Shown in pieces: positions 2,982 to 32,983 of a DNA stretch of 46,054 nt. The notes beneath the pieces were generated by a model. The model searched no databases, was not told where the DNA came from, and was given only the letters and a program-made list of their open reading frames with translations. Every line of letters starts with the position of its first letter. Within the stretch, counting starts at the first letter, position 1. The DNA is from Microcaldota archaeon (lineage in GTDB: Archaea; Micrarchaeota; Micrarchaeia; Anstonellales; Bilamarchaeaceae), in NCBI GenBank assembly GCA_016926175.1, contig JAFGPA010000038.1, positions 1 to 46,054 of the forward strand. The letters run 5' to 3'. A program made the position numbers and the translations under genes.

Positions 2982-3039
2982 TATGATTAATGATGTGCTA
3001 AACTATAAAAACCAGAAACCAGAGGCAGAAAACCAAAAA

Positions 3040-3111
3040 TGGACTCAGGGGGACTCGCACCCCCGGCCCCTCGCGTGCAAGGCGAGTGCTCTGCTACTGA
3101 GCTATGAGCCC
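3040..3111 (-). tRNA. tRNA-Ala (TGC), no intron
   Basis: GGGCTCA/TGAGTCC acceptor stem, D-arm GCTC...GAGC, anticodon loop CTTGCAC with TGC at the anticodon position, T-loop GTGCGAGTC flanked by GGGG/CCCC, A73. It is 72 nt and uninterrupted, one of only two intronless tRNA genes here. CCA is not encoded. Confidence 0.93.
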
Positions 3112-3244
3112 AAATTTTCCTTGAATAATGCTCATGTTCAAATTGAAACTTCGTTTAAATGAACCACAGAACAAAGTTCTGCCGGCCATCAAACTTCATG
3201 AGAATAATAAACGAAACAAAGAAAAATAATAAAGGAAAAGGTTT
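3112..3244. other. Intergenic stretch between tRNA-Ala and zinc-ribbon gene
   Basis: AT-rich. It contains a small hairpin (AGAAC/GTTCT near 3173-3184). The segment around 3120-3155 resembles the 3' half of the two-copy RNA element described at 28398 and 32678 (TTGAA...TTCAA followed by GAAACTT). The similarity is too short to call a third copy. No coding signal was seen. Confidence 0.3.
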
Positions 3245-28356: not shown

Positions 28357-28397
28357 GATAAATCCCTATGAATGATTTCCTACTATGAATTACTGTG

Positions 28398-28458
28398 TTT
28401 GATGACCAACAGAACCTTATTCTGTGGTCCATTGAAATGAAGCTTCAATTGGAAACTT
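28398..28458 (+). ncRNA. Two-hairpin structured RNA element, copy A
   Basis: TTTGAT leads into stem 1 (GACCA, bulged A, CAGAA, loop CCTTA, TTCTG, TGGTC; 28404-28429), a single C, then stem 2 (ATTGAA, 7-base loop, TTCAAT; 28431-28449), then TGGAAACTT. Copy B at 32678 has the same layout, bulge and loop size with compensatory changes in both stems. The strand is tentative because hairpins read both ways; a TATA-like box favours plus. No known RNA family was recognised. Confidence 0.6.
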
Positions 28459-28487
28459 TAACCTTGTAAAGGCACAGGAAAATTTTC

Positions 28488-28560
28488 GGGGGAATGGGCT
28501 AACCTGGTATGCTGTCAGCTTTGGGAGCTGGTGATCTGTGTTCAAATCACAGTTCCCCCA
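28488..28560 (+). tRNA. tRNA-Pro (TGG), no intron
   Basis: GGGGGAA/TTCCCCC acceptor stem, A73, anticodon arm TCAGC-TTTGGGA-GCTGG with TGG, T-arm TTCAAAT within CTGTG/CACAG. It is 73 nt and uninterrupted, and CCA is not encoded. The structured RNA element lies about 30 bases upstream on the same strand. Confidence 0.92.
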
Positions 28561-28596: not shown

Positions 28597-28613
28597 CTGT
28601 GGAAAATCATCAC

Positions 28614-29774
28614 ATGGCAACCAGTTCAAGGAAGACCGTCAGGTCCAGATCAGTTTCCCCAGGCTTATTGAAGAAAAAGAGACCCTCCCCACCAAAAGTT
28701 TCTAAATTTCAAAAATCTCCGGATAGAAATAGCTTTGGTCATCTTGCCAGCATCCTCACGGGCGGTGACCGCATATCGATGCTCAAGGCAGTAGATCGTC
28801 TTCAAGGCAGGGCCAGAGTGCTTGTTGAGCTGGCATGTTTCTCCAATTTCCAGTTTGTAAGACTTGCAGCAATCTCCCATCTTTCTTTTGATTCAGATGC
28901 TCTTGTTGAAATTGCAAAATACTGCCAGTATGCAGATACGAGAGCAGCAGCAGTAGATGAGCTTTCAATGCATGCTCCGGGTCTTATCGAAGTGGCATGT
29001 TCCTCGCTTTTCAAGGATACGAGGATCGATGCAGTGTCTATACTTGAGGATCCGGAAGCACTGGCAGCAGTATCAATCAAATCCCCAAACAAGGATTCAC
29101 GGGACGCTGCCATGGACAAGATAGTGGAAGACAGCCATGCACTATCAAAGGTTGCAATGGAATCAAGTTACAGGTCCATAAGGCAAAAAGCAGTCAAAAA
29201 GCTTTCATCTGATCATGAATCATTGTCTGTTCTTATGATTTCAGCAAAATACCCGGACGTGAGAAAACATGCCGCGGCAAGCCTTTCGGATTATGTGGAG
29301 GATGTAAATGATATTGACACGCTCATAGAGCTTGCCAAATTTTCTCCAAGCGAAGATGCAAGATACCTGGCAGTGGGAAGGCTTTCAGAGCATCCCTGGG
29401 CACTTAAAACCATCATTTATGAGTCAAAATTCAAGGATGCCAAATCTACAGCGCTTATGCTTCTTTCAGATATAGTGTATGAGATAGAGGATCCTGAAAT
29501 GCTCAGCGAAGTTGCAATACTTTCCCCATACGAGGACTGCAGGGAAGTTGCAGTTGAAAGACTCGTGGGGCAGAGTTCGGCCCTTCTTTCAGTTGCCAAC
29601 AAGGCAAAATACAAGGATTCACGTGAACGTGCAGTTGATAAGCTCAAGGATGATACAGAATCACTGAAATCAATATCCAAGCTTTCGCGCTATCCGGATA
29701 CAAGGAAAAAAGCCCATACCATTGTATCCCATCCTGAATTCTTCAAGGAACAGCTTTCCAGAATACTTGGATGA
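28614..29774 (+). CDS. HEAT-like helical-repeat protein
   Basis: Start at the ATG at 28614 rather than a GTG at 28599, from TATA spacing. The 386-residue protein has a basic, Ser/Pro-rich N-terminus (about 1-45). It then has about ten to twelve degenerate repeats of 23-31 residues with the pattern ALxxVAxxSxYxDxRxxAVxxL, for example DALVEIAKYCQYADTRAAAV and SALLSVANKAKYKDSRERAV. This is a HEAT-like solenoid, a protein- or nucleic-acid-binding scaffold. The N-terminal tail could bind nucleic acid. Its partner is unknown. Confidence 0.8.
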   Translation: MATSSRKTVRSRSVSPGLLKKKRPSPPKVSKFQKSPDRNSFGHLASILTGGDRISMLKAVDRLQGRARVLVELACFSNFQFVRLAAISHLSFDSDALVEIAKYCQYADTRAAAVDELSMHAPGLIEVACSSLFKDTRIDAVSILEDPEALAAVSIKSPNKDSRDAAMDKIVEDSHALSKVAMESSYRSIRQKAVKKLSSDHESLSVLMISAKYPDVRKHAAASLSDYVEDVNDIDTLIELAKFSPSEDARYLAVGRLSEHPWALKTIIYESKFKDAKSTALMLLSDIVYEIEDPEMLSEVAILSPYEDCREVAVERLVGQSSALLSVANKAKYKDSRERAVDKLKDDTESLKSISKLSRYPDTRKKAHTIVSHPEFFKEQLSRILG

Positions 29775-29805
29775 TTTTTAATCTTTTCTATATATGTTTT
29801 TTTAC

Positions 29806-30546
29806 ATGGTTCAATCTGGTAAAGAAAAAAGAATGCCCCGGCTTACTCCTGTTTCTGATTCCAAAACAAGAGAGCAGGCCAGGCAACTCTGGTATTCTGC
29901 CAAGCTCAATGAAGAAGTATCGGACATTGCTGCTTTGTCTATGCTGAAGCATGAACAGGATTCCAAGACCCGCAATTACCTTCTTGGAGCTGTCGCTAGC
30001 TTTATTCACAAAAGGCAGCATCTTGGTAAAATTGCTTCAATGATGGTTGATTTTGTAAAATCCCCGGATGAAGAGGAAAGATACATTGCAGTTTCTGCAA
30101 TCGCCAAATATCTTCAGCAGTATGACGGGAATAAGGCATATATCAGGATCTTATCAGATGCCCTTCAGGATCCTTCCCAAAGAATATCTTTTGTGGCATC
30201 CAAGGGCCTGCAGGATTATGCAGAAAGAAGCAATGAAAATGCTTCTGTTGTCATGAATGTTGTTCCCCCGGAAAGTTCAGCTCTGGATGCTGTCCGGAGA
30301 AACTATTCGGTTTCAATGCTCCCGCCCAAGCCAGCAGGGGGAAGCATGAAAATCAAGGATCTTAAAACATGCATTAATGCACTTTATGATGAGAAAAAAA
30401 AATCCAAAGCAAGCATAGAGCTTGAAAAATACATTCAAGAAGGTACTCAGAATGCAAGGAGGGTTGCAGGACTCATCCTGATTGCCGGAAAGAATGAAAA
30501 CACAGATGCCGTTTATCAAATATGCATGAAGGTTATTAATTCCTGA
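29806..30546 (+). CDS. Second HEAT-like protein
   Basis: Candidate starts are ATG at 29794, 29806 and 29833. An ATTTTTAAT box at about 29774-29782 sits 27 bases before 29806, which I chose (246 residues). Helical repeats are less regular than in the upstream protein: VSDIAALSMLKHEQDSKTRN and SPDEEERYIAVSAIAKYLQQ, then a Pro-rich linker near residues 160-172 and a short helical C-terminal domain. It follows the first HEAT-like gene by 31 bases on the same strand. The two may act together. Confidence 0.7.
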   Translation: MVQSGKEKRMPRLTPVSDSKTREQARQLWYSAKLNEEVSDIAALSMLKHEQDSKTRNYLLGAVASFIHKRQHLGKIASMMVDFVKSPDEEERYIAVSAIAKYLQQYDGNKAYIRILSDALQDPSQRISFVASKGLQDYAERSNENASVVMNVVPPESSALDAVRRNYSVSMLPPKPAGGSMKIKDLKTCINALYDEKKKSKASIELEKYIQEGTQNARRVAGLILIAGKNENTDAVYQICMKVINS

Positions 30547-32572: not shown

Positions 32573-32832
32573 TGCGGTCGCCGGGGAAATCGTTGTGTTT
32601 ACGGTTTCCTGTTTCCGGCAGCCGGAAACTGCAGGCCGTAAACTCAATTTCGAACCCGGGTCGCGAGCTTTTTCCTTTTTGATGACCAATAAAACGATGA
32701 TTCATTTTATGGTCCCCTGAACTCATGGTTCAGGTGGAAACTTCTTGGGTACCCCAAAAAAGTTTCTTGGGAAGCTCGAATCCTGCCATTATCCGTCTGG
32801 CAAACCAAGCCAAAACTCTAGACTACGACCGC
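32573..32832 (-). tRNA. tRNA-Gly (CCC) with three introns
   Basis: GCGGTCG/CGACCGC acceptor stem, A73. Mature D-loop TAG-TGGCAG needs removal of 29 bases (about 32789-32817) in the D-loop. The anticodon arm CGAGC-TTCCCAA-GCTCG (CCC) needs removal of a 98-base intron (32670-32767) at 37/38. The T-arm CCGGG-TTCGAA-N-CCCGG needs removal of about 62 bases (32587-32648) in the T-loop; that segment folds as nested TTTACGG/CCGTAAA and GTTTCCGG/CCGGAAAC helices. The 260-base gene yields a 71-nt tRNA. The 98-base intron carries copy B of the two-hairpin element. Confidence 0.85.
32678..32743 (+). ncRNA. Two-hairpin structured RNA element, copy B (inside tRNA-Gly intron)
   Basis: TTTGAT, stem 1 (GACCA, bulged A, TAAAA / TTTTA, TGGTC; 32684-32714), single C, stem 2 (CCTGAA, 7-base loop, TTCAGG; 32716-32734), then TGGAAACTT. 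It is listed in the same orientation as copy A, which is antisense to the host tRNA; the functional strand is unresolved. Both stems differ from copy A by paired changes while flanks and unpaired positions are kept. Confidence 0.6.
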
Positions 32833-32855: not shown

Positions 32856-32983
32856 TGCGGTCGCCGGGATTTGAACCCGGATCATAAGCTTTCTTCGGAT
32901 CTTTGATGAAACTTTGCTTAATAAAGGGCATCACCAAAGTCTCTTGGAAGGCTTAGGTCCTAACCAGATTAGACTACAACCGC
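32856..32983 (-). tRNA. tRNA-Gly (TCC) with intron
   Basis: GCGGTTG/CGACCGC acceptor stem, A73, D-stem GTC/GAC, anticodon arm TAAGC-CTTCCAA-GCTTA (TCC), variable TGAT, T-arm CCGGG-TTCAAAT-CCCGG. A 54-base intron (32891-32944) is at 37/38. On the tRNA strand it shares AGAxACTTT, AAGTTTC and ATCAAA blocks with the tRNA-Gly(CCC) intron next door. It has no T- or D-loop intron. Confidence 0.9.

Follow-up and report, generated by a model that had tools for sequence, protein, structure and literature searches.

The 46,054-nucleotide stretch of DNA analysed here (the window), part of a 1.05 Mb genome assembly in 39 contigs, carries a repeated two-hairpin element whose stems differ between copies through matched changes in both arms. 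This raises the question of whether the element is an RNA whose pairing is maintained by selection, as the original prediction proposed, or a DNA element whose stems stay perfect for other reasons. Both copies described in that prediction are present, with pairs, bulge, loop size and flanks as given, and alignment reproduces the double changes from CAGAA/TTCTG to TAAAA/TTTTA in stem 1 and from ATT/AAT to CCT/AGG in stem 2. Searching with a covariance model (R1, built from nine copies out of seven genomes) recovered further copies in this genome and its relatives. Among them is a decayed third copy in the window, absent from the original prediction, which lies about 20 nt upstream of tRNA-Ala (3039-3112, minus strand); two more are found elsewhere in the genome (C18:185-248 and C35:16685-16744). 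Copies 1 and 2, which are members of the training set, score E values of 5.9e-21 and 4.3e-19, and copy 3 lies outside that set.

28406-28453, plus strand: module copy 1 (read from the sequence; model R1 match 28397-28459, 81.1 bits)
32686-32738, plus strand: module copy 2, antisense in a tRNA intron (model R1 match 32677-32744, 74.7 bits)
3132-3194, minus strand: module copy 3, decayed (model R1, 47.4 bits, E 3.7e-11)
28488-28560, plus strand: tRNA-Pro(TGG) adjoining copy 1 (ARAGORN, Rfam RF00005)

The tRNA-Pro gene does lie downstream of copy 1, starting 30 nt beyond it. A TATA-like stretch is found about 40 nt upstream of copy 1; nothing ties it to the element. Further downstream on the plus strand, at 28599-30546, are two adjacent genes of 391 and 250 amino acids that by eye have the look of HEAT-type repeats.

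Aligning the copies shows that the true unit is shorter than the 61 bases originally annotated, comprising a module of about 50 nt. The layout of the module is A-[CC R A-stem-T GG]-T-[CC A-stem-T Y GG]-A, in which a first hairpin with a bulged purine is joined through a single central T to a second hairpin with a bulged pyrimidine (T in copy 1). Because the two hairpins are mutually inverted, the reverse complement of the module is almost identical to the module itself, and model R1 matches both strands of the same copy. A structural scan of the fetched loci, which demanded at least 80% Watson-Crick pairs per hairpin, returned 93 strand-wise matches that correspond to 51 distinct modules and returned none from shuffled loci; together with the model scores, this rules out chance as the source of the fixed layout. 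Across the 51 modules, 48 different sequences are found in the first stem and 50 in the second, and 854 of the 861 stem pairs are Watson-Crick, with one G-T and three A-C. The GC content of model matches ranges from 0.28 to 0.59, and the feet of the modules read A-CC...GG-T with no GTAG or GTGG head. All 51 canonical modules sit between two A residues, mostly after GA, and any target duplication amounts to at most one A, which is indistinguishable from the element's own sequence.

We found that the module is nested within other hairpin repeats. At copy 1 it splits a short repeat that ends 1 nt before tRNA-Pro and whose frame is AAGTTTGATGA/AAACTTT-20 nt-AAAGTTTC, such that the TTTGAT...AAACTT frame assigned to the element in the original prediction is part of this host repeat and not of the module. 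In its general form the short repeat is AAGTTTGATGAAACTTT followed by AAAGTTTC, the two separated by a loop of roughly 3-20 nt. Ten genomes contain 53 occurrences of the core, TTTGATGAAACTT, compared to two of a reversed control.

28397-28486, plus strand: short repeat split by copy 1 (GTTTGATGA, module, AAACTTT, 20-nt loop, AAATTTT; from the sequence)
32902-32943, plus strand: short repeat without a module (TTTGATGAAACTTT, 20 nt, AAAGTCTC; pattern match), antisense in the tRNA-Gly(TCC) intron
32856-32983: tRNA-Gly(TCC) carrying this antisense short repeat (Rfam tRNA match)

The module splits the short repeat after TTTGATGA, and other copies split other hairpins. When the sequences on either side of a module are joined, perfect host stems of 8-10 bp are restored in 8 modules, compared to about 0.2 expected from mismatched flanks; most joined flanks yield no long host stem. 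One of the 8 (at L149) occupies the apex of another module's hairpin. The short repeat itself often abuts start codons, with a Shine-Dalgarno-like GGAGG ahead of the codon, and also ends at the 5' ends of tRNAs or lies antisense in tRNA introns, the sense strand of which then starts with GAAAC.

Several observations on these repeats stand apart from the module. Protein-gene start codons are abutted by the short repeat at L014, L015, L019, L031, L085, L086, L097 and L137, and a GGAGG-like ribosome site is found in the loop or stem of start-codon repeats, for example at L019, upstream of glycyl-tRNA synthetase, suggesting that the short repeat may supply a ribosome-binding site to the adjoining genes. 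A second type of double hairpin, with the frame TGTC-hairpin-GAACATGYTC-hairpin-GACA, occurs at L098, L130, L132 and L051; it too is near its own reverse complement and is nested with the first type. At L031 and L022, short repeats are accompanied by tRNA-like 5' fragments (GCAGGAGTAGCG...), with a more complete tRNA copy downstream; the fragments are possibly duplicated tRNA pieces.

Presence or absence of the module was read at just two orthologous sites, one of which is the spacer between a GNAT-family gene and tRNA-Pro that holds copy 1. This spacer contains neither module nor short repeat in seven relatives (G003, G005, G006, G007, G013, G014 and G016), with lengths of 6 nt in G005 and 32 nt in G013. 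G004 and G010, whose gene upstream of tRNA-Pro went unrecognised, likewise lack both ahead of that tRNA. In G009, G015 and G011 the site holds only the short repeat, in this genome the short repeat with the module, and in G008 the module with further nested hairpins. In G012 the short repeat contains a different pair of hairpins, and an otherwise similar site in G013 lacks it. Comparing these two loci (L160 and L164), we observed near-identical flanks and an insert of about 150 nt in G012, which is flanked on both sides by GGAGTAAAGTT, a sequence present as a single copy in G013; this pair could represent an 11-nt target duplication or mark a repeat-mediated deletion. In G001, two module matches lie between the two exon matches of tRNA-Pro itself, which places them in an intron of about 290 nt.

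The second orthologous site is the tRNA gene that harbors copy 2. ARAGORN and Rfam scans of the window missed this gene; ARAGORN recognises it as tRNA-Gly(CCC) after removal of its introns in silico.

32573-32832, minus strand: tRNA-Gly(CCC) gene with two or three introns, unannotated (in-silico splicing, sequence)
32669-32766, minus strand: anticodon-loop intron of tRNA-Gly(CCC), which holds copy 2 (in-silico splicing; boundaries approximate to a few bases)

An intron is absent from this anticodon-loop position in the tRNA-Gly(CCC) of G005, G006, G011, G013 and G007; the genes of G013 and G007 have no intron at all, and in G011 a module occupies a T-arm intron instead. As a separate observation, the gene in the window has introns in the anticodon loop and the T arm and probably in the D arm too, and its T-arm insert (GTTTACGG..CCGTAAAC) looks like a second type of intron, an insert of this type being found also in the tRNA downstream of the element at L009. 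Given the intact intron-free tRNAs and short spacers in many relatives, we read the direction of change at both orthologous sites as insertion rather than loss.

To define how widely the module occurs, we examined the matches to model R1 across Candidatus Micrarchaeota, to which close copies in named records also belong. At the level of the genus, 10 of 17 genomes contained matches; at that of the order, 20 of 84; and at that of the phylum, 21 of 301. In these counts a missing module may reflect assembly because the genomes are drafts. Nearly all module-bearing genomes belong to one family, and modules number up to about 19-20 per genome, the most being found in G001. They are dispersed through intergenic DNA and nested in other hairpin repeats; 29 of 86 lie in long reading frames compared to 79% of control positions, and 44 of 86 lie near tRNA-like T arms compared to 19%, indicating that they are enriched beside tRNAs without being confined there. 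Near-identical modules occur at unrelated places (L125/L126, L130/L131 and L097/L137), and their similarity stops 10-23 nt beyond the module. Likeness between modules is 71% within a genome and 68% between genomes, a difference so small that it gives no sign of a recent burst. Pattern matches in bacteria (Cyanobacteria, Marinobacter and others) lack the two-hairpin fold and were taken as chance, and a viral origin was rejected as the pattern is missing from viral contigs. We found no description of such elements in Micrarchaeota in the open-access literature, though one may exist elsewhere.

We then asked whether the stems evolve as RNA or as DNA. Covariation is strong, as the original prediction had implied: 183 cells are double-changed compared to 47 in shuffles, none of 500 shuffles reaches that number and slid controls fall far lower. 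If selection acted on an RNA, G-U pairs would be expected to be accepted much more readily than A-C. We therefore counted pairs in 86 de-duplicated model matches without a Watson-Crick filter (1,585 cells), and found 1515 Watson-Crick pairs, 31 G-T and 22 A-C, or 21 G-T and 21 A-C once one foot pair, at which the bulge can be placed in two ways, is set aside. This test is conservative since the covariance model favours G-U. In tRNA stems of the same loci, 848 of 924 pairs are Watson-Crick and 76 (8.2%) are G-U; as ARAGORN gives no A-C for these stems, the G-U share is the one figure that can be compared with the modules. Perfect stems in which both arms change with no strand preference fit DNA-level palindromes, and the paired changes look like DNA-level events, which taken alone are no indication of a conserved RNA.

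A structured RNA located in tRNA and mRNA leaders and introns, where it would act in cis or as a small RNA, is the explanation closest to the original prediction, and its appeal extends beyond covariation to the fixed bulges and feet, the enrichment beside tRNAs and the many host repeats lying immediately upstream of start codons. It is nonetheless improbable in our estimation, as it does not anticipate that G-T should fail to exceed A-C, that the module's two-fold symmetry should make both strands equivalent, that modules should lie antisense in tRNA introns or that most relatives should lack the module at the orthologous tRNA-Pro and tRNA-Gly(CCC) sites. No Rfam match was found either, whether at the gathering score or at E values up to 1, which upholds the earlier statement that the element fits no known RNA family. 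Two specific RNA candidates were also rejected: a Box C/D or H/ACA guide RNA, as neither a D box nor an ACA occurs at a constant position and no Rfam match was obtained, and a hammerhead-like core (UGAUGA...GAAAC), in which the conserved C is a U and the short form lacks stem II. The strand symmetry, the missing G-T excess, the empty orthologous sites and the nesting thus speak against the step from paired changes to selection on RNA.

Instead, we consider it probable that the element is a mobile, self-nesting double-hairpin DNA repeat that inserts into other hairpin repeats, leaders and tRNA introns. On this reading, the module would insert between two A residues, mostly after GA, inside hairpin repeats that themselves border tRNA and protein genes at the 5' end and occupy tRNA introns, where they would be removable by splicing. 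The pair of hairpins is most likely recognised, or copied, as folded single-stranded DNA by a putative enzyme, in which case the feet, bulge and centre would be fixed because they are recognised, and the stems would be free to vary provided that their arms match. Correction between arms at the DNA level, through template switching, would keep the stems perfect while their sequence turns over. In archaeal tRNA maturation, introns and leaders are removed by splicing and 5' processing, and insertion of a module into an existing tRNA intron or leader would therefore be tolerated because the insert is removed as well. The enrichment near T arms also leaves room for a role of the module near tRNA genes.

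Who moves the module is a narrower question, for which Y1 transposases like those of REP/RAYT systems come to mind first. A non-autonomous REP/BIME-like element mobilised by a Y1 transposase (RAYT or IS200/IS605-like) that binds bulged hairpins is a special case of the mobile-repeat reading that names the agent, and we regard it as unlikely, if less so than a conserved RNA. The bulged, extragenic hairpins in inverted pairs are indeed BIME-like (PMC2817692), this genome has one Y1 gene, and two modules in G024 lie 200-400 nt upstream of a truncated Y1 gene. Yet IS200/IS605-type Y1 genes do not track modules across genomes: G001, which has the most modules, has no Y1 match, and G014, with two Y1 genes, contains no modules. 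Modules do not flank Y1 loci: among the 20 loci checked, they occur only near the truncated gene of G024, and on one side of it; the GTAG head is lacking, and no ends common to the module and an autonomous IS200/IS605 element were found at the Y1 loci of this genome or its relatives. An IS200/IS605 insertion after TTGAT, as the flank TTTGAT might suggest, was rejected because these loci lack the ends and because many copies have other flanks, of which only the final A, mostly GA, is common. As a side observation, L045 (G000:C26) contains a reverse transcriptase gene with an upstream repeat resembling a diversity-generating retroelement, and an IS200-like transposase is close by. A further possibility is that there is no element: replication template switching would both generate the hairpins and copy them on the spot, and the shared feet would come from the sequence that this process prefers. 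A single template-switching step is able to make or mend a perfect stem (PMC8794818), and stems that differ in nearly every copy, along with within-genome copies that are no more alike, are what such a process would leave. As the sole explanation it seems to us very unlikely, even more so than a structured RNA, when set against 51 copies in which feet, bulge and centre stay the same, closely matching copies that share short flanks at unrelated places, and nesting exactly between A residues.

Among known systems, the mobile repeat appears to behave closest to mitochondrial double-hairpin elements, REP/BIME repeats and transposed archaeal tRNA introns, and as far as tested it is assigned to none of them, as the fit of the defining features is incomplete for each. 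The double-hairpin elements (DHEs) of fungal mitochondria (Allomyces, Schizosaccharomyces) and the RHEs (hairpin-forming repeats) of sponge mitochondria are short, potentially mobile two-hairpin units that are dispersed in intergenic DNA and RNA genes and encode no protein of their own (PMC10085805, PMC2800124). By contrast, the module sits in an archaeal chromosome rather than a mitochondrion, its stems show no marked GC richness and are different in almost every copy (sponge RHEs, in contrast, conserve their stems and vary their loops), and it has strict two-fold symmetry, one bulge per hairpin and sites in tRNA introns and repeats; we draw the comparison as an analogy. REP/BIME repeats are likewise extragenic bulged palindromes in inverted pairs that keep the palindrome while the sequence changes (PMC2817692), but here there is no GTAG/GTGG head, no consistent link to Y1 and a copy number of at most about 20 per genome. 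MITEs share its small size, non-coding inverted-repeat DNA and empty and filled sites, and differ in having one outer inverted repeat instead of two inner hairpins; the module's target duplication is at most 1 nt and no parent transposon was found. The transposed tRNA introns of Thermoproteales (Fujishima et al. 2010, as described in PMC4090602) are, in that account, similar inserts gained in a lineage at several positions of different tRNAs; here, the mobile unit would be a double hairpin, one that is not limited to tRNAs and is also nested within a different hairpin repeat.

For RNA discovery the element is a warning, in that it passes standard covariation tests yet its strand symmetry and missing G-U excess point to DNA-level evolution, and counting G-U against A-C is a cheap addition to covariation screens. 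For tRNA evolution, a double hairpin found outside tRNAs and nested in a repeat offers a concrete intermediate for transposed tRNA introns. One tRNA site shows empty, short-repeat, module and nested states and another shows the intron present or absent, allowing gain to be followed stepwise, and our best reading is that the element feeds the growth of tRNA introns. More tentatively, it may represent a class of self-nesting double-hairpin elements in archaea that take hairpin loops as their targets and need no classical transposase to move, template switching and single-strand hairpin insertion being examples of how they might do so; in Micrarchaeota, such elements would be a principal origin of tRNA introns, both new and growing.
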